From Roseomonas sp. OT10 (lineage in GTDB: Bacteria; Pseudomonadota; Alphaproteobacteria; Acetobacterales; Acetobacteraceae): a DNA stretch of 64,000 nt. Shown one piece after another: positions 6,333 to 43,040 of this stretch. Under the pieces are notes generated by a model. It was not told where the DNA came from and made no database searches. It saw only the letters and a program-made list of their open reading frames with translations. A program made the translations under genes and the position numbers. Numbering within the stretch: the first letter of the stretch is position 1; the number at the start of each line of letters is the position of its first letter. The stretch lies in the NCBI RefSeq assembly GCF_020991085.1, contig NZ_CP087719.1:248001-312000 (forward strand), read 5' to 3'.

Positions 6333-6757
6333 TCATCCGCGCGGCGTGATGCGCCGGTCCGTGCCGGCGCGGGGTGCGCGCGTGGCCCGGGGGCAAGGCT
6401 CTGCCTCGCCCCTGATACCCCCACTCCGCCAGGACCCTGCGGGCCCTGGACCCGGTGGGCGCTGCCGCGGGACAGCCTGATACGGGGTCACAGCGCCGAG
6501 GAGCCATGCTCCTCGGCGGGTACGGCCGCAGCACTCGCTGACGCCCTCTGAATCTTTTCCAGGGTCCCGCCTGTCCGCGCGCTGTCAGGGTTCAGCCCGC
6601 AGGCTGACGGCAGCCACGAAGCACCAGACTCCCAGCGGGGACCGGGGCCCGCTTGTGGCCCCGGCAGGGGAGGGTCTGGGAGGGGACGGCGTCCCCTCCC
6701 GGTCCGACGCCCGAACACGACAGTACGACGGGTCAGGTCGTCCTGTCGCCCGTATCA
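6333..6757 (-). repeat. 420-bp interspersed hairpin repeat, copy A
   Basis: One of five copies of the same element. Defining order, read on the minus strand here: the TGA-containing end, a TGACCCGTCGT box, a GGGAGGGGAC/GTCCCCTCCC hairpin, a GGGGCC..GGCCCC hairpin, a CAGCCTGCGGGCTG hairpin, a GCCGAGGAG/CTCCTCGGC hairpin, a CCAGG.CCC/GGG.CCTGG hairpin, a GGGGGC.AGGC/GCCT.GCCCCC hairpin, and the other end. Left end (6333) reads inward TCATCCGCGCGGCGTGATG; right end reads inward TGATACGGGCGACAGG. The right-end TGA is the stop codon of the ABC ATPase gene ending at 6755. The copy fills the gap between two convergent ABC ATPase genes, and the 6252-6332 leftover shows nothing. Confidence 0.85.
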
Positions 6758-7675
6758 GGCCAGCACGTAGTGCCCGGCCGATACCTCGCGCAGTGCTGCC
6801 TCGGCGGGCGGCGTGACGGCCTCGTAGGCGATGCGCTGGCTCAGGCGCTCCCGGTCCGGGTCGGCGATCGGGGCGGCGGACAGCAGGGCACGGGTATAGG
6901 GGTGCTGTGCATCGGCGAAGACCTGGGCGGTGCTGCCCATCTCGACGATCCGGCCGCGCAGCATGACGGCGACGCGGTGGCACAGGTGGCGGACCATGCC
7001 GAGGTCGTGGGCGATGAACAGGTAGGCCATGCCCATCTCCTCCTGCAGGTCCATGAACAGGTTCACGATCTGCGCCTGGATCGAGACGTCCAGCGCGGTG
7101 ATCGGCTCGTCCGCCACGATCAGCTGCGGGCGGAGCGCGATGGCGCGGGCGATGCCGATGCGCTGGCGCTGCCCGCCCGAGAACTGGTGCGGGAAGCGGT
7201 CGAGGAAGCGCGGGTCCAGCCCCACCTGGCGGAACAGCTCCGACACCTTCTCGCGCTGGTCTTCCGCGTTGCGGACGCGGCCATGGACGCGCAGCGGCTC
7301 GCCCACGCTCTCCCCCACCCGCATGCGCGGGTTCAGGGAGGCATAGGGGTCCTGGAACACCACCTGCAGCCGCTGGCGGATCGGCCGCATCGCGCCCTTG
7401 CCCATCCGGGTGATGTCCTGGCCCTCGAAGCGGATGCGGCCGCCGGTCGGATCGTCCAGCCGCAGGACGAGGCGCCCGGTGGTGCTCTTGCCCGAGCCGG
7501 ATTCGCCGACCAGGCCCAGCGTCTCGCCTGGCTTCACGGTGAAGGAGATGCCGTCCACCGCCTTCACCGTGTGGTCGATCCGGCCGAACAGCCCGCGTGT
7601 GGTGTGGAAGTGGCGGGAGAGGTTCTCCACCTCCAGCAGCGGCGTTGCGGAAGGCGCGGGAGGGATGGCGTTCAT
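6755..7675 (-). CDS. Oligo/dipeptide-type ABC transporter ATPase (DppF-like)
   Basis: 306 residues with all ABC motifs: Walker [15 protein letters not shown]-loop VFQDPYASLNPRMRVGE, signature FSGGQRQRIGIARAI, Walker B LIVADEPITALDVS, and H-loop FIAHDLGMV. The early [20 protein letters not shown] start and the HPYTRALLSA phrase place it with the F-type subunits of peptide/nickel/glutathione importers. The usual C-terminal cysteine-rich zone after HPYTRALL is replaced by a shorter tail ending REVSAGHYVLA. It overlaps the D-type ATPase by ATGA at 7672-7675. No permease or binding-protein gene is nearby, so the partner proteins must be encoded elsewhere. Its stop codon is supplied by the end of repeat copy A. 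Confidence 0.88.
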   Translation of the reverse strand: MNAIPPAPSATPLLEVENLSRHFHTTRGLFGRIDHTVKAVDGISFTVKPGETLGLVGESGSGKSTTGRLVLRLDDPTGGRIRFEGQDITRMGKGAMRPIRQRLQVVFQDPYASLNPRMRVGESVGEPLRVHGRVRNAEDQREKVSELFRQVGLDPRFLDRFPHQFSGGQRQRIGIARAIALRPQLIVADEPITALDVSIQAQIVNLFMDLQEEMGMAYLFIAHDLGMVRHLCHRVAVMLRGRIVEMGSTAQVFADAQHPYTRALLSAAPIADPDRERLSQRIAYEAVTPPAEAALREVSAGHYVLA

Positions 7676-8706
7676 GCCGGGGCTCCTTCGGCGCGAACGG
7701 CGCGCAGGTCGTACCAGGCGGCGACCAGATGGCCCGGCACGCCGCCTTCGGCCTGCAGCAGGGGCGGCACCTCCGTGCGGCAGCGATCGGTGGCGAAGGG
7801 GTTGCGGGGGGCGAAGGGGTCGCCCTGCGGCGGGCGGAACATGTCGGGCGGCTGGCCGGGAATCTGGTAGAGCCGGCGCCGCTTCGTGCTGCCGGCCGCG
7901 CCCGCGCCGGGCTCCTCCTCCTCATCGGGCAGGGAGCGCAGCAGGCCCCAGGTATAGGCGCTGCGGGTGTCGTGGAAGACGGCCCGCGCCGGCCCGCGTT
8001 CCATGATGCGGCCGCCGTACATGACCTGCACGTTGTCGGCGAGCCCGGCCACCACCCCCATGTCGTGGGTGATCCAGATCATCGCCATGCCGAGCTGCGA
8101 GCGCAGCCGCTTCATCAGGTCCAGCACCTGGGCCTGCACCGTCACGTCCAGCGCGGTGGTGGCCTCGTCGGCGATGAGGAGCTTCGGCTCGCAGGCGATG
8201 CCGATGGCGATCATCGCGCGCTGGCGCATGCCGCCGGAGAACTGGTGCGGATACTGCTCCACCCGCTTCTGCGGGTCGGGGATGCCGACCAGGTCCAGCA
8301 GCTCCACCGCCCGCTTCATCGCCGCCGCGCGGGAGAGCTTCAGGTGCGTCACCAGCACCTCGCTGATCTGGTAGCCGACCGTCAGCACCGGGTTCAGCGA
8401 GGTCATCGGGTCCTGGAAGATCATGCCGATCTTCCCGCCGCGCAGGGCGCGCAACTCGCGTTCCGGCATGGTCAGCAGGTCGCGGCCCTCGAACAGGGCC
8501 TGGCCGCGCTCGATGCGGCCGGGTGGACGGGGGATCAGGCCGAGCATGGCGAGGACATGGACGCTCTTGCCGCTGCCGCTCTCCCCCACGATGCCGAGCG
8601 TCTCGCCGGGGGCAAGGTCGTAGGTGACGCCGGTCACGGCATGGACCGTGCCGTCCCAGGTGTCGAAGCGGACGGTCAGGTCGCGGACCTGCAGCAATGC
8701 GCTCAT
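7672..8706 (-). CDS. Oligo/dipeptide-type ABC transporter ATPase (DppD-like)
   Basis: 344 residues from ATG 8706 ([19 protein letters not shown]). Motifs: Walker [31 protein letters not shown], signature [16 protein letters not shown], Walker [14 protein letters not shown], and H-loop [12 protein letters not shown]. After [13 protein letters not shown] the oligo_HPY-like C-terminal extension follows ([12 protein letters not shown]..). The frame stays open upstream to 8949, but there is no Shine-Dalgarno before 8706. The ATG overlaps the stop of a 68-codon ORF by ATGA, so translation is probably coupled to it. With the F-type ATPase it forms the heterodimeric motor of a peptide-, nickel- or siderophore-type importer. 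Confidence 0.88.
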
Positions 8707-8909
8707 CGGGGCCGCCGCGCCGGGACGGGGCGCAGGGCGGGCGCCAGGGGCGGTGGCGCGAAGAGCGCCGCGAGCCGGGCCGCCAGGCCGGGCCGGGAGG
8801 AGCGGCGCGGCGAGGCCCTGGAGGAGAGCAGGGCGTGCAGCCGTGGCATGGACCGCGGTGCGTGGAAGTCCTCGAGACCGAGCCATCCCCAAGGCGGCAT
8901 CGCCCGCAT
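8703..8909 (-). CDS. Small Arg/Pro-rich ORF translationally coupled to the ABC ATPases
   Basis: 68 residues, function unknown. Begins MRAMPPWGWLGLEDFHAP, then an Arg/Ala/Pro-rich body with no predicted export signal. Evidence that it is real: a strong AAGGAG sits about 8 bases upstream of its ATG, the Fur-box-like site 8929-8947 lies just upstream, and its TGA overlaps the ATPase ATG (ATGA at 8703-8706), while the ATPase itself lacks an obvious ribosome site. It may be a leader ORF whose translation feeds the ATPase, or a remnant of a larger gene. High-GC DNA makes chance ORFs of this size common, so confidence is moderate. Confidence 0.45.
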   Translation of the reverse strand: MRAMPPWGWLGLEDFHAPRSMPRLHALLSSRASPRRSSRPGLAARLAALFAPPPLAPALRPVPARRPR

Positions 8910-8928
8910 GCCCCCACTCCTTACATAT

Positions 8929-8947
8929 GATAACGATTCTTAATATC
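8929..8947 (-). promoter_or_regulatory. Fur-box-like operator
   Basis: An AT-rich island in very GC-rich surroundings. The 19 bases GATAACGATTCTTAATATC match 13 of 19 positions of the classical Fur consensus GATAATGATAATCATTATC, and are part of a TGATA...TATCA inverted repeat. It lies about 20 bases upstream of the small ORF at 8909 and its ribosome site, exactly where a repressor of the ORF-dppD-dppF transcript would bind. This suggests the orphan ATPases serve a metal or siderophore uptake system. Confidence 0.5.
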
Positions 8948-8999
8948 ATTCAGTGGAGGAGGGCAAGCCCGTTCGGGATCTCCCTGGCGGATGGCGCCG

Positions 9000-10469
9000 T
9001 CAGTCGCGGGGCAGCGGCCTCCCGGCCTCCCCATGGCTGGACAGGGGAGCGGCCACCTCCTCCAGCGGCCGGCGCTCCGCGGCGAAGCCCAGGCGCCATT
9101 CGGTGAAGGCCGCGAGCAGCATCAGCGCGGCGCCGATCAGGTAGCCCCACAGGATGCTGAAGCGGTCGCCGCCCTCGATCAGCGCGCCGAACAGGGCGGG
9201 GCCGATGACGCCGCCGACGCCCGTGCCGAAGGCGTAGAACAGGGCGATGGCCATGGCGCGCATCTCCAGCGGGAAGCCCTCGCCCACGGTGAGGTAGGCG
9301 GCGGAGGCGGCGGCCGAGGCGAAGAAGAAGATCACCGTCCAGGCGGCCGTCTGCTCCCACGCGGAGAGCCAACCATGGGCGAAGGCGAAGCCGGTGATGG
9401 CCATCAGGATGCCGGAGAGGGCATAGGTCGCGGTGATCATCGGCTTGCGGCCGATGCTGTCGAACAGGTGGCCGAGGAGGAGGGGCCCCATCAGGTTGCC
9501 CAGGGCGAAGGGCAGCATGAACCAGCCGATGTGGTGGCTCTCGATGCCGTAGAAGGTCGTCAGCACCAGGGCGTAGGTGAAGAAGATCGCATTGTAGCAG
9601 AAGGCCTGGCAGGCCATCAGCACCACGCCCAGCACGGTGCGCCGGGGATAGGTGTGCCACAGGGTGCGCGCCACCTCGGCCATCGAGGTGCCGTCGCGCC
9701 GGTGCAGCCGGATGCCGCGCCCGACCACCGGGGGCAGGGGGCCGCGCTCCGCCGCCACCCGCGCCTCGATGCTGCTCACGATCGCCTCGGCCTCCTCCGG
9801 GCGCCCGTGCGTCATCAGCCAGCGCGGGCTTTCCGGGATCCAGCGTCGCAGGAACAGCACCACCGCCGAGAGCGCGCCGCCGATGGCGAAGGCCAGCCGC
9901 CAGCCCAACTCCGGGTCGATCACCCGGGGGTCGAGCAGCACCACCGCCCCCAGCGCGCCGATCGCCGCACCGGCCCAGAAGGTGCCGTTGATCGAAAGGT
10001 CGGTGATGCCGCGCCGCCGCGCCGGGATCAGTTCCTGGATGGCGGAGTTCACCGCCGCGTACTCGCCGCCGATGCCGGCGCCGGTGAGGAAGCGGAAGAA
10101 GGCGAAGGACCAGAAATCCCAGGAGAAGCCGGTGGCGATGGTCGCCAGCAGGTAGACCAGCACGGTGACGGTGAAGAGCTTCTTGCGCCCCAGCCGGTCG
10201 GTCAGCCAGCCGAACAGCAGCGCACCCAGCACCGCGCCGAGCAGGTACGCGGAGGCGGTCAGCCCCACCTGGCTCTCGCTGAGCCGCAGGCTGGGGCTCT
10301 GGTGGATGGCGCCGGCCAGCGAGCCGACCAGCGTCACCTCCAGCCCGTCCAGGATCCAGGTGACGCCCAGCGCGACCACCACCAGCCAGTGGAAGCGCGA
10401 CCAGGGAAGCCGGTCGAGTCGCGCGGGGACCTGGGTGAGGAAGGAATCCCGTGAGGTCCCGTCTGGCAT
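9000..10469 (-). CDS. Major facilitator superfamily transporter (sugar/aromatic-acid porter type)
   Basis: 489 residues, twelve membrane segments. The loop between TM2 and TM3 has the family signature FGWLTDRLGRKKLFT, followed by RFLTGAGIGGEYAAVNS in TM4, the usual sugar-porter/aromatic acid:H+ symporter pattern. A long central cytoplasmic loop (about residues 220-270) separates the two six-helix halves. GGAGGAAG about 8 bases before the ATG at 10469 fixes the start (MPDGTSRDSFLTQVP). Substrate not predictable. It diverges from the DMT transporter gene across about 130 bases. The 90 bases after its stop lead to the Fur-like site of the next gene set. Confidence 0.87.
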   Translation of the reverse strand: MPDGTSRDSFLTQVPARLDRLPWSRFHWLVVVALGVTWILDGLEVTLVGSLAGAIHQSPSLRLSESQVGLTASAYLLGAVLGALLFGWLTDRLGRKKLFTVTVLVYLLATIATGFSWDFWSFAFFRFLTGAGIGGEYAAVNSAIQELIPARRRGITDLSINGTFWAGAAIGALGAVVLLDPRVIDPELGWRLAFAIGGALSAVVLFLRRWIPESPRWLMTHGRPEEAEAIVSSIEARVAAERGPLPPVVGRGIRLHRRDGTSMAEVARTLWHTYPRRTVLGVVLMACQAFCYNAIFFTYALVLTTFYGIESHHIGWFMLPFALGNLMGPLLLGHLFDSIGRKPMITATYALSGILMAITGFAFAHGWLSAWEQTAAWTVIFFFASAAASAAYLTVGEGFPLEMRAMAIALFYAFGTGVGGVIGPALFGALIEGGDRFSILWGYLIGAALMLLAAFTEWRLGFAAERRPLEEVAAPLSSHGEAGRPLPRD

Positions 10470-10598
10470 AGGCTGCTTCCTCCCGTTCCATCCATCGCAG
10501 GGGCCGCCGGCCCGGCGCACCACGACTGGAACGCGGGAGCCGGCGAAGGTTACGCCGCCTGCTTGACCGGGATGGGCGGCCCGGCCAACCCAGCGGGC

Positions 10599-11516
10599 AT
10601 GATCCTCTCTCCTTTGTGGCTGCCGGCCACGCTGCTGGCGGCCCTGTTCCAAGCCTGGCGAACCGCGTTGCAGCAGCGGCTCCGGGGCCACATGTCCGTC
10701 AACGCCGCCGGGCTGGTGCGCTACCTGTATGGCGCGCCCACCGCCCTGCTGCTGCTCGGGATCAACATGGCCGTCCTCGGCGGCCCGCTGCCGCGGCCGG
10801 AGGGGAGGTTCTGGCTCTGGGTGCTGTGCGGCGGGCTGGCCCAGATCGCCGGCACCAACCTGCTGATCATGGCCTTCGGCCATCGCAACTTCGTCGTCGG
10901 CACGGCCTATGCCAAGACCGACGCCGTGCAGGGCGCCGTGCTGGGCGCCGTGGTGCTGCGCGAGGCGCTTTCGCCCCTCGCCTGGATCGGGGTGGCGACC
11001 AGCGTGGCCGGCACGCTGGTCCTCTCGCTGGCCGGCAAGGCGCCGCGCGCGGCGGAGCTGCTGCGCGCCACGGTGCAGCCTGCGGCCCTGTGTGGCCTGG
11101 GCGCCGGGCTAGGCTTCGCCTTCTCCGGCGTCTTCATCAAGCTGGCCGCCGCCAGCCTGCCGCCAGAGACCGAGGCGCTCCGCCGCGCGCTCTGCGTGCT
11201 GTTGGCAATGAACGTGCTGCAGACCCTCATCCAGGGCGGCTGGATGCTGTGGCGGGAGCCGGACCAGCTGCGCGGCGCCTTCACCGGCTGGCGCAACGCC
11301 GCCCCGATCGGCGCCCTCTCCGCCCTCGGCTCCGCCTGCTGGTTCCTGGGCTTCGTCCTGGCCCCCCTCGGCCTGGTGCGCAGCGTCGGCCAGGTGGAGA
11401 TACTGTTCACCCTGATGCTGGGCCATTTCTACCTGCGCGAACGCTTCACCCGCGCGGAGGTGCTGGGCGCCGTGACCGTGGTGCTGGGCGTGCTGCTGGT
11501 GCTGGCCGGGGCGTAG
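10599..11516 (+). CDS. EamA/DMT-superfamily membrane transporter
   Basis: 305 residues with ten hydrophobic segments in two repeated halves, typical of drug/metabolite transporters. Examples are VVGTAYAKTDAVQGAVLGAVVL in the first half and VRSVGQVEILFTLMLGHFYL in the second, the EamA-like end-of-repeat motif. Exports or imports a small metabolite; substrate unknown. ATG 10599 was chosen because the first hydrophobic segment begins immediately after it; upstream in-frame TTG 10563 and ATG 10572 would only add a short polar leader. The 3' end faces repeat copy B. Confidence 0.82.
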   Translation: MILSPLWLPATLLAALFQAWRTALQQRLRGHMSVNAAGLVRYLYGAPTALLLLGINMAVLGGPLPRPEGRFWLWVLCGGLAQIAGTNLLIMAFGHRNFVVGTAYAKTDAVQGAVLGAVVLREALSPLAWIGVATSVAGTLVLSLAGKAPRAAELLRATVQPAALCGLGAGLGFAFSGVFIKLAAASLPPETEALRRALCVLLAMNVLQTLIQGGWMLWREPDQLRGAFTGWRNAAPIGALSALGSACWFLGFVLAPLGLVRSVGQVEILFTLMLGHFYLRERFTRAEVLGAVTVVLGVLLVLAGA

Positions 11517-11572
11517 GCATCCGCCCGTAGCCCGGAACCGGCGCTTCCACCGATGACCCCTCCCGCCGGGGG

Positions 11573-11991
11573 TTATACGGGTGGCGGGATGACCTGACCC
11601 GTCGTGCTGTGGTGTTCGGGCGGCGGACCGGGAGGGGACGCCGTCCCCTCCCAGACCCTCCCCTGCCGGGGCCACAAGCGGGCCCCGGTCCCCGCTGGGA
11701 GTTTGGTGCTGGCTGCTGCCGTCAGCCTGCGGGCTGAACCCTGAGGAACGCGGACAGGCGGGACCCTGGAAAAGATTCAGAGGGCGTCCGCGAGCACCGA
11801 GCCCGTGCCCGCCGAGGAGCAATGCTCCTCGGCGCCTCGACCCAGTGTCCGGCTGACCCGCGGCAGCGCTCATCGGGTCCAGGGCCCGCAGGGTCCTGGC
11901 GGAGTGGGGGTATCGGGGGCGAGGCAGAGCCTTGCCCCCGGGCCACGGGTGCAAGTCCGGCAGGCATCAACGCATCACGCCGCGCGTATCA
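11573..11991 (+). repeat. 420-bp interspersed hairpin repeat, copy B
   Basis: Same element as copy A but in the other orientation. This copy shows the terminal inverted repeats best: the left end reads TTATACGGGTGGCGGGATGA and the right end, inward, TGATACGCGCGGCGTGATGC, 15 of 20 positions identical. All internal hairpins are recognisable, and the stem around 11815-11840 (GCCGAGGAG/CTCCTCGGC) is intact. It lies between the DMT gene (ending 11516) and the FAD oxidase gene (ending 12075), which converge. The bases 11517-11572 and 11992-12074 hold no recognisable feature. No flanking target duplication is evident. Confidence 0.85.
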
Positions 11992-12074
11992 CCGGGTGGC
12001 GGGGGTCAGCCTGCAGGTCGAGCCGGATGGGCGCGCGGGCGGTCGGGGCGCTGGAAGGACGGGCGGCACGCGCA

Positions 12075-13259
12075 TCACGCGGCCTCTCCAGCCGCCCAGG
12101 CTGTGATCGCCGCGCGCCGCGACGGGTCGGCCGCGGCGGCCGTGGCGACGGCCTGGCCCAGGGCGGGGCCGAACTTGAAGCCGTGGCCGGAGGTGCCGCA
12201 GAGGGCGAGGCAGCCTTCACCCAGCGGCTCCAGGGCGATGCGCTCGCCGGGCGAGACCTCGTAGTAGCAGGCGCGGGCGGAGAGGATCCGGTAGGCGCCG
12301 GCATCGCGCAGGCGGGGCAGGGCCAGGGCGAGGATGGCCTCCGCCTCGGCCGGGCTGGCCTCGCGCGGGTCGTCCGGGTCGCCCTGCAGGCTGAAGCTGT
12401 GGTCGCCCACCTTCAGGGGCGTGCCGGCCACCGGGGGCACGGCGTAGAAGCCGCCCGAGAGGTCCAGCAGCATCGGGGCCGCCTCCCAGCCGGCCCGCAG
12501 GGCGGGAGGCGGCTCCAGGTTCACCAGGATCTGCCGGGAGGGGACGGCGCGGGGCGCCAGGCCCGGCAGCAGCCGCGCGGTCCAGGGGCCGGCGGCCAGG
12601 ACCAGCAGGTCGGCGGACAGGGCGGTGCCGTCCTCCAGCACGACGCGGGCGGCGGCGGGCTCCACCCCGGCGACACGGGCGCGGCGGAGGGCCACCCCCC
12701 GGGCGGCAAGGTGCCGGGCCAAGCCGGCCACGATGCGGTCGGCCAGAAGCACGCCCCCGGTGGGAAGGTACAGCGCCTCCTCCACCGCCGAGACATCGAG
12801 AAAGGGGAGGCGCCGGGCGAGGGCGTCCGGCGAGAGCGCCTCGAAGGGGCGGCCATCCTCGCGCAGCGCGGCGCGGGTGGCGGACAGCCAGCCCAGCGCC
12901 TCGCCATGGTCCGCCGGGCTACCGAGGGTGCTGCCCGTGGCCGCGGGCGGCGGATGGCGGCCGGCGAGGGCGAGGGTGCCGGTGGGCCGGTAGGGACGCT
13001 CGCCGAGATCGGCGAAGACCGACTCCCAGGCGTCGTGCGCCGCGTCGACCATCCGCATGTAGCCACGCTGGTCGCCATAGGCGTGGCGGATCAGCCGGTG
13101 GCGGTCCACCGAGCTGCCGCGGGGATTGGGGATCGGGTCCTGCTCGACCAGCTCCACCACCCAGCCGTCGCGGGCCAGGGCCCAGGCGGAGCACAGGCCC
13201 ATGATCCCGCCGCCCACCACCAGGGCGCGCCGCCCCCGGTCCAGGGATGCCGCACTCAT
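12075..13259 (-). CDS. FAD-dependent amine oxidase (sarcosine oxidase/DAO family)
   Basis: 394 residues. The N-terminal Rossmann dinucleotide motif is ALVVGGGIMGLCSAWALARDG at residues 12-31 and the late FAD-binding signature is CGTSGHGFKFGPALGQ. This is the DAO/monomeric sarcosine oxidase-N-methyltryptophan oxidase fold, which oxidises an N-methyl or secondary amine to give H2O2. Its substrate is unknown. The ATG at 13259 overlaps the stop of the DUF2474 gene by ATGA, so it is the last gene of the cytochrome bd operon. That is an unusual partner: the oxidase would consume O2 and release peroxide. Convergent with repeat copy B. Confidence 0.82.
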   Translation of the reverse strand: MSAASLDRGRRALVVGGGIMGLCSAWALARDGWVVELVEQDPIPNPRGSSVDRHRLIRHAYGDQRGYMRMVDAAHDAWESVFADLGERPYRPTGTLALAGRHPPPAATGSTLGSPADHGEALGWLSATRAALREDGRPFEALSPDALARRLPFLDVSAVEEALYLPTGGVLLADRIVAGLARHLAARGVALRRARVAGVEPAAARVVLEDGTALSADLLVLAAGPWTARLLPGLAPRAVPSRQILVNLEPPPALRAGWEAAPMLLDLSGGFYAVPPVAGTPLKVGDHSFSLQGDPDDPREASPAEAEAILALALPRLRDAGAYRILSARACYYEVSPGERIALEPLGEGCLALCGTSGHGFKFGPALGQAVATAAAADPSRRAAITAWAAGEAA

Positions 13260-26393: not shown

Positions 26394-27596
26394 ATGCCGG
26401 CTTTCCGCACCCTCGACGACCTTGATGCCCAGGGCCAGCGCGTGCTGCTGCGCGCCGACCTGAACGTGCCGGTGCGCGACGGGCAGATCAGCGACTTCAC
26501 CCGCATCGAGCGCCTCTGCCCCACGATCAAGGAGCTGTCCGACAAGGGCGCGAAGGTCATCATCTGCTCCCACTTCGACCGGCCCAAGGGCAAGGTCGTG
26601 CCGGAGATGTCGCTCAAGCCGCTGGCCGCCGCGCTGGAGAAGGCGCTGAACAAGCCGGTTGCCTTCGCGGACGACTGCGTCGGCCCGGTGGCCGAGGCCG
26701 CGGTCGCGAAGCTCGCCGACGGCGACATCCTGCTGCTGGAGAACACCCGCTTCCACGCGGGCGAGGAGAAGAACGACCCCGCGCTCGCCCAGGGCCTGGC
26801 GAAGCTCGCCGACGTTTACGTGAACGACGCCTTCTCCGCCGCGCACCGCGCCCATGCCTCGACCGAGGGCGTGGCCAGGCTCCTCCCCGCCTATGCCGGC
26901 CGGCTGATGCAGCAGGAGCTGGAGGCGCTGGACGCGGCGCTCGGCACCCCCTCGCGCCCCGTCGTCGCCATCGTCGGCGGCGCCAAGGTCTCCACCAAGC
27001 TCGACCTGATCGGCAACCTGTCGAGGAAGGTGGACGTGCTGGTGATCGGCGGCGCCATGGCCAACACCTTCCTCGCTGCCCAGGGCTATTCCGTCGGCAA
27101 GTCCCTCCAGGAGGCGGAGATGCACGAGACCGCCCTGCGGATGCTGGAGGAGGCGAAGGCCGCCAACTGCAAGGTGCTGCTCCCGGTCGATCTCGTCGTG
27201 GCGTCCGAGTTCAAGCCCAACCCCGCCACCCGCACCGTCGCCATCGACAGCGTGCCCGCCGACATGATGGCGCTCGACGTGGGGCCGGAGACGGTGGAGG
27301 CGATCGAGGCGGAGCTGCGCAAGGCCTCCACCCTGGTCTGGAACGGCCCGCTCGGCGCCTTCGAGACCCCGCCCTTCGACACCGCCACCGTCGCCGTGGC
27401 GCAGACCGTCGCCTCGCTCGGCACCTCCGCCGGGCTGAAGTCCATCGGCGGCGGCGGCGACACCGTCTCCGCCCTGCGCCACGCGGGCGTCCTCGACCGC
27501 ATGACCTATGTCTCCACTGCCGGCGGCGCCTTCCTGGAATGGCTGGAGGGCAAGACCCTGCCGGGCGTCGCGGCGCTGGAAGCGGCGGTGGGGTAG
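26394..27596 (+). CDS. pgk: Phosphoglycerate kinase
   Basis: 400 residues. Substrate-binding [19 protein letters not shown] near residue 20, [21 protein letters not shown], the hinge [12 protein letters not shown], nucleotide-binding [13 protein letters not shown], and [13 protein letters not shown] at the end. Interconverts 1,3-bisphosphoglycerate and 3-phosphoglycerate with ADP/ATP, using the product of gap upstream. ATG 26394 was chosen because the family starts with this short FRTLDDLD phrase; codons upstream run into the island. It must have its own promoter because the island genes next to it point the other way. Confidence 0.96.
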
Positions 27597-27728: not shown

Positions 27729-28154
27729 TGATAATGCCGATGGCGGAATGGCCTGACCCGTGGCGCTGTCGTGGTCGGGCGTCGGACCGGGAGGGGACGC
27801 CGTCCCCTCCCAGACCCTCCCCTGCCGGGGCCACAAGCGGGCCCCGGTTCCCGCTGGGAGTCTGGTGCTTCGTGGCTGCCGTCAGCCTGCGGGCTGAACC
27901 CTGACGGCGCGCGGACAGGCGGGACTCCGAAAAAGGTTCAGAGCGCGTCAGCGAGAACGGACACCGTACCCGCCGAGGAGCATGGCTCCTCGGCGCCTTG
28001 ACCCCGTCGCAGGCTGTCCCGCGGCAGCGCCCTTTGGGTCCAGGGCCCGCAGGGTCCTGGCGGAGTGGGGGTACGGGGGCGAGGCAGAGCCTTGCCCCCG
28101 GGCCACGCGCGCGGCCCGTGCCGGCACGGACCAGGGCGTCCCGCCGTTCGTATA
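27729..28154 (+). repeat. 420-bp interspersed hairpin repeat, copy C
   Basis: Same orientation as copies B and D. The only copy between tandem genes: pgk upstream and lpd downstream, both on the plus strand. Its left end starts TGATAATGCCGATGGCGG and its right end, inward, TATACGAACGGCGGGAC. The GCCGAGGAG/CTCCTCGGC stem (27976-27998) and both flanking palindromes are intact. The bases 27597-27728 are GC-rich with short inverted repeats only; 28155-28390 contains the lpd leader with no clear element. Confidence 0.83.
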
Positions 28155-28390: not shown

Positions 28391-29782
28391 ATGTCCGAGA
28401 GCTTCGACCTCATCGTCATCGGCGCCGGCCCCGGCGGCTATGTCTGCGCCATCCGCGCCGCGCAGCTCGGCATGAAGGTGGCCTGCGTGGAGAAGCGCGA
28501 CACGCTGGGCGGCACCTGCCTGAACATCGGCTGCATCCCCTCCAAGGCGCTGCTGCAATCCTCCGAGAATTACGAGGAGGCGGCGCACCACTTCGCCGAG
28601 CACGGCATCGGCGTCGGCCAGCTCACCCTGGACCTGGCCCGCATGCAGGCCCGCAAGGGCGAGGTGGTGGGCGCCAACGTCAAGGGCGTCGAGTTCCTGT
28701 TCAAGAAGAACAAGGTCACCTGGTTGAAGGGCGCCGGGAAGATCGTCTCGGCCGGCAAGGTCGAGGTCGAGGGCACGACCTACGAGACGAAGGCCATCGT
28801 CATCGCCTCCGGCTCCGACAGCACCCCGCTGCGCGGCGTCGAGGTGGACGAGGCGCAGATCGTCACCTCCACCGGCGCGCTGGAGCTGGAGAAGGTTCCG
28901 GGCCATCTGGTCGTCATCGGCGGCGGTGTGATCGGGCTGGAGCTGGGCTCCGTCTGGCGCCGCCTGGGCGCGGAGGTGACGGTGATCGAGTTCCTCGACC
29001 GCCTCGTCCCCGGCATGGATGGCGAGATCGCCAAGCAGTCCGAGCGCGTGCTGTCCAAGCAGGGGATCAAGTTCCGGCTGAAGTCCAAGGTCACCGGCGC
29101 GACCAAGTCCGCCGAGGGCGTGACCCTGACGGTCGAGCCCGCCGCCGGCGGCGCGGCCGAGGAGCTGAAGGCGGACATCGTCCTGCTGGCCATCGGCCGC
29201 CGCCCCTATGTCGAGGGGCTGGGGCTGGACGCGGCGGGCGTGGCGCTGGACGAGCGCGGCCGGGTCAAGGTGGACGGCCACTACGCCACCAACGTCCCCG
29301 GCATCTACGCCATCGGCGACGTGATCGCCGGCCCGATGCTGGCCCACAAGGCCGAGGAGGAGGGCGTCGCGGTGGCCGAGATCCTGGCCGGGCAGCATGG
29401 CCACGTGAACTACGGCGCCATCCCGGGCGTGGTCTACACTTGGCCGGAGGTCGCCTCGGTCGGCGAGACGGAGGAGCAGCTGAAGGAGCGCGGGCAGGCC
29501 TACAAGGTCGGCAAGTTCCCCTTCACCGCCAACGGCCGCGCCCGCGCCATGGGCTCCACGGACGGCTTCGTGAAGATCCTGGCCGACAAGGAGACGGACC
29601 GGGTCCTGGGCGCGCACATCATCGGCCCGGATGCCGGCACGCTGATCGCCGAGCTGGTGATGGCGATCGAGTTCGGCGCCTCGGCCGAGGATGTCGCTCG
29701 CACCTGCCACGCCCACCCCTCGCTGAACGAGGCGGTGAAGGAGGCGGCGCTGGCCGTGGACGGGCGCGCCCTGCATATCTGA
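28391..29782 (+). CDS. lpdA: Dihydrolipoyl dehydrogenase (E3)
   Basis: 463 residues. FAD motif VIGAGPGGYVCAIRAAQLG at 10-28, redox-active disulphide C43-C48 in TLGGTCLNIGCIPSKALL, NAD motif VIGGGVIGLELGSVWRRLG, second FAD block NVPGIYAIGDVIAGPML, and catalytic His-Glu in HAHPSLNEAVKEAAL. Reoxidises dihydrolipoyl groups of pyruvate or 2-oxoglutarate dehydrogenase and the glycine cleavage system. No lipoyl domain is fused and the other complex subunits are not in the window. The in-frame extension upstream runs through repeat C and is not coding. Confidence 0.96.
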   Translation: MSESFDLIVIGAGPGGYVCAIRAAQLGMKVACVEKRDTLGGTCLNIGCIPSKALLQSSENYEEAAHHFAEHGIGVGQLTLDLARMQARKGEVVGANVKGVEFLFKKNKVTWLKGAGKIVSAGKVEVEGTTYETKAIVIASGSDSTPLRGVEVDEAQIVTSTGALELEKVPGHLVVIGGGVIGLELGSVWRRLGAEVTVIEFLDRLVPGMDGEIAKQSERVLSKQGIKFRLKSKVTGATKSAEGVTLTVEPAAGGAAEELKADIVLLAIGRRPYVEGLGLDAAGVALDERGRVKVDGHYATNVPGIYAIGDVIAGPMLAHKAEEEGVAVAEILAGQHGHVNYGAIPGVVYTWPEVASVGETEEQLKERGQAYKVGKFPFTANGRARAMGSTDGFVKILADKETDRVLGAHIIGPDAGTLIAELVMAIEFGASAEDVARTCHAHPSLNEAVKEAALAVDGRALHI

Positions 29783-38103: not shown

Positions 38104-38472
38104 GTGCGACCGAAGAACCCCGCCTGCCTCCTGCTGCCGCTGAGCCTGCTCCTCGCCGGCTGCGACGCCTTCCTGGGCTGGGGGGCGGCGGTCAACGTGG
38201 TGTCGCTCACCACGGTCGGGCGCACCGTGCCGGACCTCGTGGTGTCCGCGGTGACGGGACGCGACTGCTCGATCGCCCATATCGACGCGGGGGAGACACG
38301 CTACTGCCGCGCCGACCCGCTGCCGTCCGCCGCCTCCTATTGCACGCGAAGCCTGGGTGGCATCGACTGCTGGTCCTCCCCGCCGCCAGGCCTGCCGCCA
38401 CCGCGCCCCGTGGCAGATGCGCCGCCGGTCCCGGCCGTGGAGCCACAGCGCTGGCCGCTGAACCGGCTCTGA
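38104..38472 (+). CDS. Small lipoprotein of unknown function
   Basis: 122 residues from GTG 38104. A lipoprotein signal (CLLLPLSLLLAGC, acylated Cys20) is followed by a short domain with paired cysteines (GRDCSIAHID, RYCRADPL, SYCTRSLGGIDCW) and a Pro-rich tail. The cysteines probably form disulphides in the periplasm. I know of similar alphaproteobacterial lipoproteins but no function. Its stop codon TGA is the first three bases of repeat copy D, so the gene end and the repeat end coincide. Confidence 0.7.
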   Translation: MRPKNPACLLLPLSLLLAGCDAFLGWGAAVNVVSLTTVGRTVPDLVVSAVTGRDCSIAHIDAGETRYCRADPLPSAASYCTRSLGGIDCWSSPPPGLPPPRPVADAPPVPAVEPQRWPLNRL

Positions 38473-38893
38473 TCCCAACGGCGGGATGGGGCTGACCCGT
38501 CGTGCCGTCGTGTTCCGGCGTCGGACTGGGAGGGGACGCCGTCCCCTCCCGGACCCTTCCCTGCCGGGGCCACAAGCGGGCCCCGGTCCCCGCTGCGAGT
38601 TGGTGGCTCTACGCAGTAGGCGTCAGCCTCCGGGCTGAACCCTGACGGAGCGCGGACAGGCGGAACGCTGGATAAAGCTTCAGAAGGCGCCCGCGAGGGC
38701 TGCGTCCGTGCCCGCCGAGGAGCCATGCTCCTCGGCGCCTCGACCCCGTCGCAGGCTGTCCCGCGGCAGCGCCCACCGGGTCCAGGGCCCGCAGGGTCCT
38801 GGCGGAGTGGGGGTACGGGGGCGAGGCAGCGCCTTGCCCCCGGGCCACGGGCGCCAGTCCGGCAGACGTCAGCGCATCACGCCGCGCGTATGA
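38470..38893 (+). repeat. 420-bp interspersed hairpin repeat, copy D
   Basis: Same orientation as B and C. Left end TGATCCCAACGGCGGGATGG (nearly identical to the corresponding end of copy E) starts at the lipoprotein stop codon. The right end, inward, is TCATACGCGCGGCGTGATG. It fills the gap between the convergent lipoprotein and YggS-like genes. A few stems carry compensating or near-compensating changes, for example GTCAGCCTCCGGGCTGA where other copies have CAGCCTGCGGGCTG. Confidence 0.85.
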
Positions 38894-38924
38894 GGCCGTG
38901 GCCTCGGTATGGCCCTGCGCCGGG

Positions 38925-39608
38925 TCAGGCCGGGTAGGGGCGGGAACCAAAGATGGCGCTGCCCACGCGGACATGGGTGGCGCCCTGGGCGATGGCGGCC
39001 TCGAAATCGCCGCTCATCCCCATGGACAGGGTGCGCAGTCCCTCGCGCGCCGCCAGCCCGGCCAGCCAGGCGAAATGCGGCGCCGGGTCCTCGTCGGCGG
39101 GCGGGATGCACATCAGCCCGTCGATGGCGAGCCCGTACTCGTCGCGGCAGGCGCGCAGGAAGGCGGCCGCCCCGGCCTTCGGTACCCCGGCCTTCTGCGG
39201 CTCCTCGCCGGTGTTCACCTGGACCAGCAGGCGGGGCGCCCGTCCCTCCTTGGCGATGGCCTCGGCCAGGGCGGCGGCCAGCTTCGGGCGGTCCAGGCTT
39301 TCGATGACATCGGCGATGCGCACGGCATCGCGGGCCTTGTTGGTCTGCAGCGCGCCGATCAGGTGCAGCCGCAGGGCCGGATGCGCCGGGCGGAGCGGCG
39401 GGAACTTGGCCATCGCCTCCTGCACCCGGTTCTCGCCGAAGGCCTCCTGGCCGGCCGCCAGCGCCTGCGCCACGCTCCCGGCGGGATGGGTCTTCGACAC
39501 GGCCACCAGCTGCACCGAGTCCCGCGGCCGGCCGGCCCGTTCGCAGGCCCTGGCGATCCTGGCGCGGACGCGGTCGAGGGCGGCGGCGATATCCTGCGGC
39601 TGATCCAT
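38925..39608 (-). CDS. YggS/PROSC-family PLP homeostasis protein
   Basis: 227 residues, alanine-racemase-like barrel without a second domain. PLP lysine in QLVAVSKTHPAGSVAQALA, then FGENRVQEAMAKF, LHLIGALQTNKARDAV, and LSMGMSGDFEAAIAQGATHVRVGSAIFG. Controls free pyridoxal phosphate; not an enzyme with a known reaction. ATG 39608; start faces the ThiE-like gene. Confidence 0.93.
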   Translation of the reverse strand: MDQPQDIAAALDRVRARIARACERAGRPRDSVQLVAVSKTHPAGSVAQALAAGQEAFGENRVQEAMAKFPPLRPAHPALRLHLIGALQTNKARDAVRIADVIESLDRPKLAAALAEAIAKEGRAPRLLVQVNTGEEPQKAGVPKAGAAAFLRACRDEYGLAIDGLMCIPPADEDPAPHFAWLAGLAAREGLRTLSMGMSGDFEAAIAQGATHVRVGSAIFGSRPYPA

Positions 39609-39706
39609 GGGGAGAGGGAGATAACGGCCTGGGCATCGCGACGATAGACGGCGCGGTCCGTCGCCTGCGCCCCCCGCCCGGCTCGCGCGCGCCGCGGCTG
39701 TGGCTG

Positions 39707-40300
39707 GTGACCGATTCGCGGCGCCTGCCCGACCCGCTGGCCGCCGCCGCCGCCCTGCCGCCGGGCTCGGCGGTCCTGGCGCGCGACCTGCCGGCGGCGA
39801 TGCTGCGCCGCCTGGCACCGCTCTGCCGCCGGCACCGGCTGGCCCTGGTGGTCAGCGGCGACGGCCGCGCGGCGCTGGCGCACCGGGCCGGGCTGCACCT
39901 GCCCGACCGGCGCGGAGTCGCGGGGCTGCTGCCCTGGCTGCTGGCCCGGCGCGGCCGGCGTGGCCCGGCGCGGCCGCTGCTCAGCGCCGCCGCCCATGGC
40001 CGCCGGGGGCTGGCGCGGGCCAGGCGGCTGGGGGCGGACGTCGTGCTGCTCTCGCCCGTCTTCCCGACGGCGAGCCATCCCGGGGCACCGGCCCTGGGGC
40101 CGCTGCGCTGGGCGGCGCTGGCGCGGCGGGCGGGACGGCCGGCCATCGCCCTGGGCGGGATGACGGCCCGCGGAACGCGACGCCTGCCGCGGCGGGCCGG
40201 CGGGGTGGCGGCGCTCGCCGGGTTGTGTCGGCCTCGCCACACTGTCTCGCAGAAGTCGCGGGGTGGGTCCGGCAACCATTGCCCCCCGCGAACGGGCTGA
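39707..40300 (+). CDS. Thiamine-phosphate-synthase-like (ThiE/TenI) protein
   Basis: At least 197 residues. GADVVLLSPVFPTASHPGAPALG and RPAIALGGMTARG match the phosphate-binding end of the ThiE/TenI barrel. GTG 39707 cuts into the first strand (RLWLVTDSRRLP), so the true start may be a non-standard codon upstream, such as CTG 39629, as no ATG/GTG/TTG is in frame there. The active-site region of ThiE is poorly kept and the last 25 residues after the barrel look random. A TenI-like or degenerate protein is as likely as a working thiamine enzyme. Divergent from the YggS-like gene. Confidence 0.6.
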   Translation: MTDSRRLPDPLAAAAALPPGSAVLARDLPAAMLRRLAPLCRRHRLALVVSGDGRAALAHRAGLHLPDRRGVAGLLPWLLARRGRRGPARPLLSAAAHGRRGLARARRLGADVVLLSPVFPTASHPGAPALGPLRWAALARRAGRPAIALGGMTARGTRRLPRRAGGVAALAGLCRPRHTVSQKSRGGSGNHCPPRTG

Positions 40301-40430
40301 CCCATAGTCCGCCCGGACCTGGCCCCGCCGAGCGCATCCGTGATGCTTCGTCAGGGGGCATTCTGCCAGGGGGGCAGGCGGGTCGAGGGAACAGCCGGGC
40401 CATGGGCCTGGTGCGTGAGGAGGATTTGGG

Positions 40431-41822
40431 ATGCGCAAGCTTTTGCTGGGATCGACCGCGGTGGCCGCCGCGGCGCTGTTCGCGCCGCAGGACGCGCTGG
40501 CGCAGGCGGCCGACCCCTTCCTGCCGCCGGGCCCGCCGATGATGTCCCAGCGCGCCCTTGAGGTTCGCGTGGGCGGCTATTTCCGCTTCAACTACAGCTT
40601 CACGGACCAGGACGGCTCGGGCTCCAACGGCACGGCCCTGCCGGTCCCCGCCGGCGCCGCGCCGGTCACGGCGCTGACCCCGACGGCCGGCCGCCATTCC
40701 GCCAACACCGGCAAGTCTGACTTCTCGTCCGACGCCGAGATCCACATCACCGCGAACGGCAAGGCCGCCAACGGCCTCCGCTACGGTGGCGCGATCGAGC
40801 TGCAGGTCGACCAGAACGACGGCGCCGGCGTGGCCGGCACCCGCACCAACGGCGGCAGCAAGACCACCGTCGACACGGACGAGATGTGGATGTTCGTGGC
40901 CGGCACCTACGGCCAGCTGCGCTTCGGCGACGAGGACGGCCCGCTGGGCGGCCTGATGAACTCCGGTCACGTCACCAACTTCGCCACCGGCGGCGTCGAC
41001 GGCGACTGGTTCGACAGCGTGATCGTGGGCGTCCGCAACAGCACCTTCTTCGCCGGCGACGTCGGCGACAACACCAAGATCATCTACCTGTCGCCGCAGT
41101 TCTTCGGCTTCGACGTCGGCGCCAGCTTCGCCTTCAACAACGGCGAGGGCGAGGACACGGGCTGCGTCCTGATCTACGCGACCGCGAACTGCGACCGCGC
41201 GAACCAGTTCTCCGGCACGGGCCGCGCGAACCAGTTCTTCGGCACGCCGCGCCGCCGCAACGAGACGCAGCTCGCCGCCCGCTGGCGCGGGTCCTTCGGC
41301 GGCGTCGGCATCGCCGTGACCGGCGGTGCGATCCTGGCCGACCCGACCAAGGTCATGCCGGCGGTTCCGGGCCTGGCCGCGACGAACAGCGCCATGTCCT
41401 ACCGCGTCTACGAAGCCGGCGCGCAGGTCTCCGCCTTCGGCGCGCTGGTCGGCGGCTGGTACCGCTGGGGCCCGGCGAACGGCGGCACCCCGCTGCAGAA
41501 CGCCGGCGGCTCGATCGTCGATACCCGTGACCTGAGCGAGTACTTCGTCGGCGCGTCCTACACCTTCGGCGACATCACGGTCGGCGCGAACTACTACAAC
41601 CTGCTGACCGCCGGTTCGCAGTCGGTCCTCGGCGGCCGCCGCGAGAGCGCGTGGTCGGTGGGCGCCACCTACCGCGTCGCGCCGGGCCTGGAGCTGGTGG
41701 CCGACTACACCAACGCCCAGCGCCGGGAGAGCGGCTTCGACTTCCTGGCCGGCTCCTCCGGCTCCGCCAACAACAAGGTGGACGCCCAGGTCGTCATCGT
41801 CGGCACCCGCATCGCCTTCTGA
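40431..41822 (+). CDS. Outer-membrane porin
   Basis: 463 residues with a typical Sec signal (MRKLLLGSTAVAAAALFAPQ...ALAQA, cleavage near residue 25). The mature chain is a beta-barrel: many alternating strands, FRFNYSFTDQDGSG near the start, GTYGQLRFGDEDGPLGGLM, VVGASYTFGD-like strands and a C-terminal phenylalanine (VVIVGTRIAF), the signature for BAM insertion. General or anion-type diffusion pore of the Rhodospirillales porin group. Strong GAGGAGG site before the ATG and a textbook terminator after it suggest high expression as a single gene. Confidence 0.92.
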   Translation: MRKLLLGSTAVAAAALFAPQDALAQAADPFLPPGPPMMSQRALEVRVGGYFRFNYSFTDQDGSGSNGTALPVPAGAAPVTALTPTAGRHSANTGKSDFSSDAEIHITANGKAANGLRYGGAIELQVDQNDGAGVAGTRTNGGSKTTVDTDEMWMFVAGTYGQLRFGDEDGPLGGLMNSGHVTNFATGGVDGDWFDSVIVGVRNSTFFAGDVGDNTKIIYLSPQFFGFDVGASFAFNNGEGEDTGCVLIYATANCDRANQFSGTGRANQFFGTPRRRNETQLAARWRGSFGGVGIAVTGGAILADPTKVMPAVPGLAATNSAMSYRVYEAGAQVSAFGALVGGWYRWGPANGGTPLQNAGGSIVDTRDLSEYFVGASYTFGDITVGANYYNLLTAGSQSVLGGRRESAWSVGATYRVAPGLELVADYTNAQRRESGFDFLAGSSGSANNKVDAQVVIVGTRIAF

Positions 41823-41846
41823 TCGGGCGACCGGACCGGAACGGGG

Positions 41847-41880
41847 AAGGGCGGCAGGGCAACCTGCCGCCCTTCTTCTT
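41847..41880 (+). terminator. Rho-independent terminator of the porin gene
   Basis: Perfect 12-bp arms AAGGGCGGCAGG (41847-41858) and CCTGCCGCCCTT (41863-41874) with a four-base loop, followed by CTTCTTT. Confidence 0.92.
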
Positions 41881-41973
41881 TCCCGCTTTTCATCATGGCG
41901 CCTTGCGGTTTCTTGTGACCGGCGCCGCACGGCCCCTTGCGCCGGGCGCGCCGCTGCATACTGTGCCGCCGCC

Positions 41974-42498
41974 ATGACATATCCCCGCCTCGCAGCCCTG
42001 GCGCTGCTTCCGGCCCTGCTGATCGGTTGCGGGCAGACGCGCCAGGTCGGCAATGACGAATACGGTGACAACAGCGGACGCTCCCGCGTGGCGGGCCGTC
42101 TGGGCGGGTCGGATGGCATCCTGCTCTTCGGGACGGACCGGTCCAACCGGAACGCCGCCGGGGATGCGGGGGCGGGCCTCGGCGTCAACGCCTATCTCTG
42201 GCGCGCCAGCCTCGACACCCTGTCCTTCATGCCGCTGGCCTCCGCCGATCCCTTCGGCGGCGTGATCATTACCGACTGGTACTCGCCGCCCTCCGCCCAG
42301 GGTGAGCGTTTCCGCGCCACGGCCTATATCCTGGGCCGCCAGCTCCGCTCGGACGGCGTGCGAATCTCCGTCTTCAAGCAGGAACTGCGGGGCAGCACCT
42401 GGCAGGATGCCCCGGTGGCCGCAGCGACAGCGACGGAGCTGGAGGACAAGGTCCTCGCCCGCGCCCGCGAACTGCGTAGCCAGACCGCCTCGAACTGA
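41974..42498 (+). CDS. DUF3576-domain lipoprotein
   Basis: 174 residues. Lipoprotein signal LALLPALLIGC (Cys19), then the DUF3576 pattern: LGVNAYLWRASLDTLSFMPLASADPFGGVIITDWYSPPSAQGERFRATAYILGRQLRSDGVRISVFKQ is recognisable in pieces such as NAYLWRASLDTLSFMPL and GGVIITDWY. Widespread in alphaproteobacteria; probably an envelope protein of unknown function. A 13-bp hairpin follows. Confidence 0.88.
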   Translation: MTYPRLAALALLPALLIGCGQTRQVGNDEYGDNSGRSRVAGRLGGSDGILLFGTDRSNRNAAGDAGAGLGVNAYLWRASLDTLSFMPLASADPFGGVIITDWYSPPSAQGERFRATAYILGRQLRSDGVRISVFKQELRGSTWQDAPVAAATATELEDKVLARARELRSQTASN

Positions 42499-42501
42499 TC
42501 C

Positions 42502-42544
42502 TCCGGCCCCGGGGGTATGCCGCCGCCGGAGCCCCGGGGCCGGA
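42502..42544 (+). terminator. Hairpin after the DUF3576 gene
   Basis: 13-bp arms TCCGGCCCCGGGG (42502-42514) and CCCCGGGGCCGGA (42532-42544) around a 17-base loop, no T-run. Confidence 0.55.
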
Positions 42545-42617
42545 CACGGCACGAGAGCTGCGGCCCTTCGGCGGCAACCCCCTCCAAGCGGGCCTCCCTG
42601 GCAGCAACGGCCTGCCT

Positions 42618-43040
42618 CATACGGATGGCGTGTTGCGCCGGTTCGTGCCGGCGCGGGGTGCTTCCGTGGCCCGGGGGCAAGGCTCTGCCTCGCCCCCGTA
42701 CCCCCACTCCGCCAGGACCCTGCGGGCCCTGGACCCGATTGGCGCTGCCGCGGGACAGCCTGCGACGGGGTCACGGCGCCGAGGAGCCATGCTCCTCGGC
42801 GGGGACGGCCTCAGCCCTCGCTGACGCCCTCTGAAGCTTTTTCGGAGTCCCGCCTGTCCGCGCTCTGTCAGGGTTCAGACCGCAGGCTGACGGCAGCCGC
42901 GTAGAGCCAACTCCCAGCGGGGACCGGGGCCCGCTTGTGGCCCCGGCAGGGGAGGGTCTGGGAGGGGACGGCGTCCCCTCCCGGTCCACCGCCCGAACAC
43001 CACAGCACGAAGGGTCAGCCCCATCCCGCCGTCGGGATCA
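42618..43040 (-). repeat. 420-bp interspersed hairpin repeat, copy E
   Basis: Same orientation as copy A. Best place to read the internal stems: 42635-42654 (GCGCCGG/CCGGCGC), 42673-42697 (GGGGGCAAGGC/GCCTCGCCCCC), 42712-42732 (CCAGGACCCTGCGGGCCCTGG), 42778-42800 (GCCGAGGAGC/GCTCCTCGGC), the CAGCC-like stem near 42876, CCGGGGCC/GGCCCCGG near 42925, and GGGAGGGGAC/GTCCCCTCCC near 42961. Left end inward TCATACGGATGGCGTG; right end inward TGATCCCGACGGCGGGATG, whose TGA is the stop codon of the minus-strand gene ending at 43038. Lies between convergent genes. Confidence 0.85.

Follow-up and report, generated by a model that had tools for sequence, protein, structure and literature searches.

A short interspersed repeat in Roseomonas sp. 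OT10

We analyzed a stretch of 64,000 nucleotides from Roseomonas sp. OT10 (contig NZ_CP087719.1; referred to here as the window; 72% GC), which corresponds to positions 248001-312000 of contig 1 in a genome (G000) of 5.69 Mb and three contigs. It harbors five copies (A to E) of a short interspersed repeat that very probably represents a lineage-specific, non-autonomous family of the miniature inverted-repeat transposable element (MITE) type, with recombining copies and with constrained hairpins of putative function. The five repeats were first pointed out in an earlier note on this DNA, and all of them are present at the positions given there, except that the left edge of the fifth copy lies at 42617 and was hence off by one base. 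Both orientations occur, as had been noted: copies B, C, and D are in plus and copies A and E in minus orientation. When used as a BLASTN query, every copy recovers all others (10 pairs; 84.1-92.1% identity over 366-427 aligned bases; E <1e-125). The alignments extend along the full element; hence, a similarity limited to one short hairpin, an outcome that would have spoken against a repeat family, is excluded.

While the limits drawn originally for the copies enclose the right region, their outermost TGA or TCA triplets are target duplications, so that 3 bp have to be subtracted on either side to obtain the element proper. Copy A (6336-6754, minus strand, 419 bp), which like copies B, D, and E was delimited by BLASTN and end mapping, is flanked by convergent genes (5166-6251, plus; 6755-7675, minus). 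Its left target triplet TCA (6333-6335) is identical to the right one (6755-6757), which on the minus strand is the TGA stop codon of the ATP-binding cassette (ABC) transporter ATPase gene 6755-7675. Copy B (11576-11988, plus, 413 bp) has the non-matching outer triplets TTA and TCA, and copy C (27735-28152, plus, 418 bp) possesses no recognizable target duplication (TAA and TAC); the latter resides between the tandemly arranged genes pgk (26394-27596) and a pyridine nucleotide-disulphide oxidoreductase gene (28391-29782). Copy D (38473-38890, plus, 418 bp) is bordered on both sides by TGA (38470-38472 and 38891-38893; end mapping). Copy E (42620-43037, minus, 418 bp) is positioned between convergent genes; its left TCA triplet was placed at 42617-42619 by end mapping, and its right one (43038-43040, minus) is the TGA stop codon of the predicted gene 43038-43466. 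With 413-419 bp in the window the element is short, and no open reading frame of at least 100 amino acids (ATG, GTG, or TTG start) lies wholly within any copy, which bears out the earlier observation that the copies lack a transposase gene.

Copy number and distribution

The palindrome CGCCGAGGAGCNNNGCTCCTCGGCG was found at 231 places of the genome when up to two mismatches were allowed (reversed-pattern control: 0), and a non-palindromic core word at 111 places on the plus and 110 on the minus strand at the same stringency (control: 5 and 3). The several hundred copies that the earlier note had extrapolated from the density in the window thus shrink to 221-231, about half of that extrapolation, dispersed on both strands along the chromosome; most copies are ~405-420 bp in size. 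All 87 zero-mismatch places of the core word are on contig 1 (the chance of finding none on contigs 2 and 3, 6% of the genome, is 0.003). Along the chromosome these 87 places are not significantly clustered (Kolmogorov-Smirnov test, p 0.10). The region from 1.0 to 2.5 Mb of contig 1 is more sparsely occupied (3, 3, and 2 zero-mismatch places per 500 kb vs. 6-15 in the other full bins). Rfam yielded no family at its gathering score anywhere in the window (0 matches), copy E had no match in plasmid or phage records, and the fourth palindrome of the element (H4, see below) had no exact match in viral contigs. Beside a damaged copy end on contig 1 (~678.9 kb; L051:6948-7037), we observed a distinct inverted-repeat element of ~90 bp (TTGATACGGTGGACGGCC .. 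GGCCGTCTACCGTATCAA) whose ends begin with TTGATACGG and superficially resemble those of the main family.

The element duplicates a TNA target

To define the ends we used a discovery set, consisting of the window and the adjoining 400 kb (464 kb; 36 copies, 30 of them near full length), and an independent set made up of the next 20 zero-mismatch places beyond this 464-kb stretch, for which the boundaries had been fixed beforehand (56 copies in total). With ends set as TACGG..CCGTA, 17 of the 36 discovery copies bear the same outer triplet on both sides (7.7 expected; permutation p 5e-5). Among those copies in which both 15-bp ends deviate by at most four mismatches, 15 of 21 exhibit the target duplication (7.7 expected; p 1e-4), and no comparable excess was seen with other duplication lengths or shifts. 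The independent set gave the same picture (12 of 20 copies; 5.9 expected; p 4e-4). Overall, a 3-bp TNA duplication is present in 29 of 56 copies, and each of the 29 matched triplet pairs is either TGA/TGA or TCA/TCA; TGA is never paired with TCA.

The terminal inverted repeat (TIR) inside these triplets is 15 bp long and has the consensus TACGGACGGCGGGAT; it replaces the form TGATACGG proposed earlier. In copy B, the left TIR (11576-11590) has two and the right TIR (11974-11988) three mismatches to this consensus; the 15 of 20 matching end positions counted previously in this copy are correct as a count, but the target triplets make up the first three bases. Both ends are within six mismatches of an 18-bp end consensus in 21 of the 30 near-full-length copies, and of the 49 matches to the 18-bp form in 464 kb (at most four mismatches), 44 are located at copies. 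The five matches away from copies are at chance level (7 and 9 in two simulated sequences), and in single copies the TIR is weak. Nor do the termini serve as the signature of the family, as had been thought, since the TIRs are among its most variable parts and the internal palindromes are what is conserved. An alternative delimitation with the ends TGATACGG..CCGTATCA, combined with a further target duplication or none at all, was rejected: there is no duplication outside these ends, and the outer triplets match within copies.

Copies lie downstream of genes, often at a stop codon

Using a custom codon-usage gene caller rather than a standard one, we found 42 of the 56 copies between convergent genes (28 of 36 in the discovery set and 14 of 20 in the independent set), 14 between tandem genes, and none between divergent genes. 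The 370 background neighbor pairs in the 464 kb comprise 66 convergent, 237 tandem, and 67 divergent pairs. With the ends as first drawn, the stop codon of a gene overlaps the element by exactly three bases in 20 of 36 copies; with the ends as now defined, the edge triplet is a neighbor's stop codon in 21 of the 36 discovery and 13 of the 20 independent copies (34 of 56). A stop codon was hit in 13 of 17 resolved insertions, whereas the use of any TSA within the respective spacer at random predicts 9.3 +/- 1.6. Stop codons therefore seem to be hit mainly because they are the available TSA sites, few others being present in those spacers; 292 of the 371 predicted genes end in TGA.

Genes next to the copies are truncated slightly or not at all. 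We had initially taken alignment to the last residue as proof that a gene was untruncated; this was dropped, and the stop codons of the orthologues themselves were compared instead. In three relatives from the genus (G003, G004, and G012), the orthologues of gene 6755-7675 at copy A have their stop, a single TGA, at the corresponding residue, and no element follows in the 2.2-2.4 kb covered there; their ends thus look as a pre-insertion target should. The gene preceding copy B likewise ends at the same residue in these three genomes.

Six palindromes form a conserved core

The core of the element consists of six palindromes (H1-H6), whose divergence from the consensus we determined in 26 copies of the 464-kb set; private and shared variants (see below) were counted in 39 copies. 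Copies with odd ends or lengths (10 of 36 and 7 of 20) were left out of these counts. In copy B, H2 (CCGGGGCC/GGCCCCGG) extends from 11666 to 11688, H4 (CGCCGAGGAGC/GCTCCTCGGCG), the palindrome with 231 places in the genome, from 11810 to 11834, and H5 (CCAGGGCCC/GGGTCCTGG) from 11879 to 11899. These three are near-invariant, with one of 624 bases off consensus in H2 (0.002), two of 572 stem bases in H4 (0.003), and one of 650 bases in H5 including the flanking GGGT (0.002). H1 (GGGAGGGGAC/GTCCCCTCCC; 11630-11652), H6 (GGGGGCGAGGC/GCCTTGCCCCC; 11915-11939), and H3 (TCAGCC/GGCTGA; 11722-11737) are less strict, with divergences of 0.023, 0.027, and 0.060, respectively. Outside the palindromes, the values rise to 0.12-0.14 for the stretches between hairpins, 0.15-0.19 for the arms, and 0.155-0.21 for the terminal repeats. 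On either strand, copy B yields a better fold than any of 100 shuffled sequences (z -5.4 and -3.4).

Pairing was followed in an alignment of 59 copies from the OT10 genome and its relatives, in which H1 and H2 were not counted since they are poorly aligned between species. Two pairs of H4 read A-T and G-C in each of the 40 own copies and G-C and A-T in each of the 18 scorable copies of the relatives; for one pair of H5, 11 of the 19 relatives' copies have C-G and 8 have G-C, while the pairing of H6 is less regular in these copies.

Copies are mosaics of shared variants

Private changes amount to 0.7% in hairpins plus their spacers, 1.2% between hairpins, 1.5% in the arms, and 1.9% in the TIRs, and shared variants to 0.5, 11.5, 14.6, and 16.8%, respectively. 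Palindromes and spacers carry fewer private mutations than the regions between them (39 of 5536 vs. 77 of 6495; Fisher p 0.0085). With private mutations at only 1-2%, we dropped a reading of the non-palindromic divergence as long decay from which an age could be estimated. Among the 39 copies, the nearest neighbor of a copy is 89.4% alike in the median and 91.6% at most; when 11 places in the genome were scored for copy A, the closest one reached 93%. Of the informative site pairs, 73-91% fail the four-gamete test. Judged from this pattern of variants, with the shared ones far above the private ones and with the four-gamete failures, the copies are mosaics of common shared variants. The simplest reading of these mosaics is recombination, either between copies or among source sequences during spread, two possibilities that look alike in these data. 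Four loci (L047, L220, L230, and L233) carry the same longer variant of H1, suggesting that whole hairpin modules are exchanged between copies.

Occupied and empty sites in relatives

The protein encoded by 28391-29782 is 92-93% identical in G003, G004, and G012, and 82-85% in the other eleven genomes of the genus. A core of ~310 bp, some 70% like that of the OT10 element, recurs in the three sister genomes, where a variant of H4 (GGAGAGC, at most one mismatch) is present at 67 (G003), 79 (G004), and 72 (G012) places. This variant occurs at 0 places in the OT10 genome and at 0 in the other 11 genus members, and the GAGGAGC form of H4 typical of OT10 was found in none of 19 sampled copies of the relatives. 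Shorter pieces of 28-98 bp match several further genus members (e.g., G007; E 1.5e-14). The conserved core spacer, found at 198 places of the OT10 genome, is present at one place in one of 59 other genomes drawn from the family, a sample that includes one genome of this genus and does not include the three sisters. Within the genomes tested, the full core thus appears confined to the clade shared with G003, G004, and G012. Two copies in G003 (L089 and L091) have ends like those of the OT10 family (TGATCCAACCGGCGG and TGATGCGGGTGGCGG), and the outer ends of other copies in G003 and G012 deviate from these and are often close to GGCGTTGCGC; an exchange of cores and ends thus seems to have taken place.

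A comparison of orthologous sites, as suggested in the earlier note, could be made from one side. Four sites occupied in OT10 were compared in this way, namely those of copies A and B and two beyond the window. Here, the ends of the orthologous genes of G003, G004, and G012 are followed by no element within 2.2-2.45 kb, except that at the site of copy B only 0.17 kb was available in G004 up to the contig end. The insertions at these four sites consequently look younger than the split of the lineages. When the region 5166-13259 of the window, gene 28391-29782, and six more flank pairs were looked up in the relatives, the two flanks were never found together; the genes flanking copies A, B, and C (6333-6757, 11573-11991, and 27729-28154) did not turn up next to each other in the relatives compared, so that the repeats may mark rearrangement break points or may simply lie between independent genes. 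No clear site emerged that is occupied in OT10 and also in G003 or G012, the pair L087/L235 being the doubtful case. Downstream of the orthologue of 9000-10382, G003 and G012 both carry an element and OT10 has none; in G004, a copy lies ~2.2 kb away from this site. The G003 and G012 copies at this shared site are 78.2% alike, and neither is the other's closest among the copies compared (the G003 copy is 82.7% like another G003 copy); their hairpin letters differ, and the pairing is retained. Likeness between copies is 0.767 within G003, 0.779 within G012, and 0.763 between the two.

Search for a mobilizing enzyme

A full-length transposon with the same ends, which the earlier note proposed to look for, was found neither at the 26 PF13340 loci nor at 30 of the 34 PF01609 loci of the OT10 genome. 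We did not count such an autonomous partner as a requirement for assigning the element to the MITEs, as the source may be lost. The loci L122 and L283 were considered as partners and rejected, since their best mismatch sum (6) is also reached by random windows; loci L284-L286, to which the same family matches with a score equal to that of L283, are not among the best. A scan of these 26 PF13340 (DUF4096) loci that required TNA repeats revealed three with ends of at most one mismatch and one of at most three, none of them element-like. The enzyme may have been lost, may have diverged, may belong to another family, or may reside in another strain. Fifteen of the 26 DUF4096 (IS5-type) transposase loci are located on the small contig 2 (e.g., L107, L108, L114-L124), and three of the contig 2 loci have TNA target repeats and ends such as GACCCCGTTTCATAAC or GAGCGCCTAACACAAC.

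Comparison with known repeats

Members of the IS1031 group of insertion sequences (IS) are described as targeting TNA with a 3-bp direct repeat, including one insertion in a TGA triplet, and this group (IS5 family) and the MITEs derived from it thereby share target and repeat length with our element (PMC12016507). IS elements with TNA repeats are present in the OT10 genome as well, but their ends (GAACCCGTTTCATAAC, GAGCGCCTAACACAAC, and similar ones) are unlike those of the element (TACGGACGG), and no transposase locus searched in this genome carries the element's ends, as a derivative of such an IS would share.

Streptococcus pneumoniae belongs to another phylum. Its BOX, RUP, and SPRITE repeats resemble the Roseomonas element in being small, interspersed, and enriched between convergent genes (PMC3049150); RUP has been proposed to be moved by an IS (PMC2229807). 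For BOX, 36 of 58 overlapping coding sequences obtain their stop codon from the repeat, with no strong evidence of truncation (PMC3049150). Compared by description, the Roseomonas element differs from these repeats in its ~410-420 bp, its 72% GC surroundings, its six mostly hyperconserved palindromes, and its TNA duplication. The Caulobacter CIR, which is alphaproteobacterial, and the enterobacterial ERIC/IRU are likewise intergenic, structured, and present at many sites (PMC2229807); with ~110 bp and ~127 bp, respectively, they are much shorter than ~410-420 bp, and in this comparison by size and Rfam nothing was found in the window. REP, BIME, and REPIN sequences are also high-copy palindromes in intergenic DNA; their units are given as 20-40 bp (PMC3733652), whereas our element is a fixed composite with TIRs and target duplications. 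The MITE-type family is real, and no earlier description of such a repeat from Roseomonas or the Acetobacteraceae was found in a literature search that left many subscription papers and repeat databases such as ISfinder outside; within the same partial coverage, we found no stop-codon-targeted MITEs beyond BOX.

How the family may have spread

The MITE-like nature assumed in the earlier note is supported by the replicated 3-bp TNA duplication, by the dispersal on both strands of the chromosome, and by the lack of an element at the corresponding gene ends of three sister genomes. Each copy, with its 15-bp TIRs, would have inserted into TNA, nearly always TGA/TCA, and thereby duplicated the target, presumably through a DDE transposase acting in trans. 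Insertions would have persisted where they did little harm, namely downstream of genes, mostly convergent ones, and often exactly in a TGA stop. Because the 3-bp duplication restores the TGA stop codon, an insertion at this place removes hardly any coding sequence, if any. Source sequences or resident copies may then have swapped short tracts by gene conversion or an equivalent process, so that copies would come to combine shared variants in differing ways and to have few private mutations, and the internal palindromes would have been constrained throughout, be it for mobility, for a role at mRNA 3'-ends, or for both.

Several observations weigh against this scenario. The identical outer triplet is absent in 27 of 56 copies, and the TIRs (divergence 0.155 and 0.21) are among the most variable parts; within a copy, the left and right TIRs differ by 4.85 mismatches and between copies by 4.83, which is odd for a mover that depends on them. 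Around 56 transposase loci, the best TIR pairs have a mismatch sum of 6, which is also the lowest value among 300 random windows, and no empty site has both flanks conserved, so that "empty" is meant in a one-sided sense. Stop codons also do not invariably keep their ancestral position: CobS at another site falls short of its counterparts in G003, G004, and G012 by 3-6 residues, and HpnB, encoded by a further flanking gene, is one residue shorter than at 11 of 14 named loci and 2-3 residues shorter than at the other three; the closest named hpnB relatives, among the best 80 loci of more, stem from Roseomonas pecuniae, Pararoseomonas, and other Roseomonas-type bacteria (74-81%), in a collection from which the OT10 genome itself or near genomes may be left out. 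Furthermore, the four-gamete failures could in part reflect recurrent mutation.

It is possible, although we would not bet on it, that the element is kept for a function: at convergent genes it would act as a 3'-end structure working in both directions (terminator, insulator, or mRNA 3' protector), with hairpins read from both sides, possibly after it had spread as a MITE and was then co-opted. The near-invariance of H2, H4, and H5 beside 12-21% divergence in the non-palindromic parts, the scarcity of private mutations in palindromes and spacers, the pairing that sister genomes maintain in H4 and H5 with other letters (also at the one site that G003 and G012 have in common), the folding of copy B, and the 42 convergent settings all argue for it. 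However, the constraint after insertion is merely ~1.7-fold, there is no strand preference (111/110), and purely structural selection leaves unexplained why the sampled own copies have one common H4 sequence. An enrichment between convergent genes is expected of harmless insertions too, and pneumococcal IS elements are reported to show it (PMC3049150). Old, vertically kept repeats under concerted evolution, with gene conversion homogenizing the hairpins within a species, are an unlikely source of the pattern. The occurrence of GAGGAGC in OT10 (231 places vs. 0 of GGAGAGC) and of GGAGAGC in the sisters fits such a history, as do the mosaics and the closer tie of the G003 shared-site copy to a fellow G003 copy than to its G012 counterpart; but the GAGGAGC form was assessed in 19 sampled copies of the relatives and not counted over their whole genomes. 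Four bare gene ends in the relatives and the persistence of 29 target duplications speak against it, likeness within G003 or G012 hardly exceeds that between them, and homogenization alone would not single out palindromes. Decidedly doubtful, too, is a combination in which the ~225 copies form a dispersed, recombining population of bidirectional 3'-end structures at convergent stop codons, in which selection and recombination preserve the hairpins rather than the ends and concerted evolution creates a species-specific hairpin alphabet.

That the mover is truly specific for stop codons strikes us as improbable: edge triplets coincide with a neighbor's stop in more than half of the copies and a stop was hit by 13 of the 17 resolved insertions, but this excess amounts to only ~2.4 standard deviations with n = 17, other TSA sites are few in the short, GC-rich spacers, and most genes end in TGA. 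We give still less credence to REP/BIME-like elements moved by a hairpin-recognizing tyrosine (RAYT-type) transposase. A 3-bp target duplication would not be expected of RAYT-class enzymes, and neither the length of ~410-420 bp nor the TIRs fit, even though hairpins rather than ends are conserved here and REPs are described as usually exceeding 100 copies per genome (PMC2817692).

The repeats may complicate short-read assembly and annotation in this group of bacteria. They provide a countable case of the spread of a gene-less repeat through a compact, GC-rich genome in which the target triplet doubles as a stop codon, and the contrast between near-invariant palindromes and a reshuffled remainder lets one ask about gene conversion among MITEs and about the use of their hairpins to the host.

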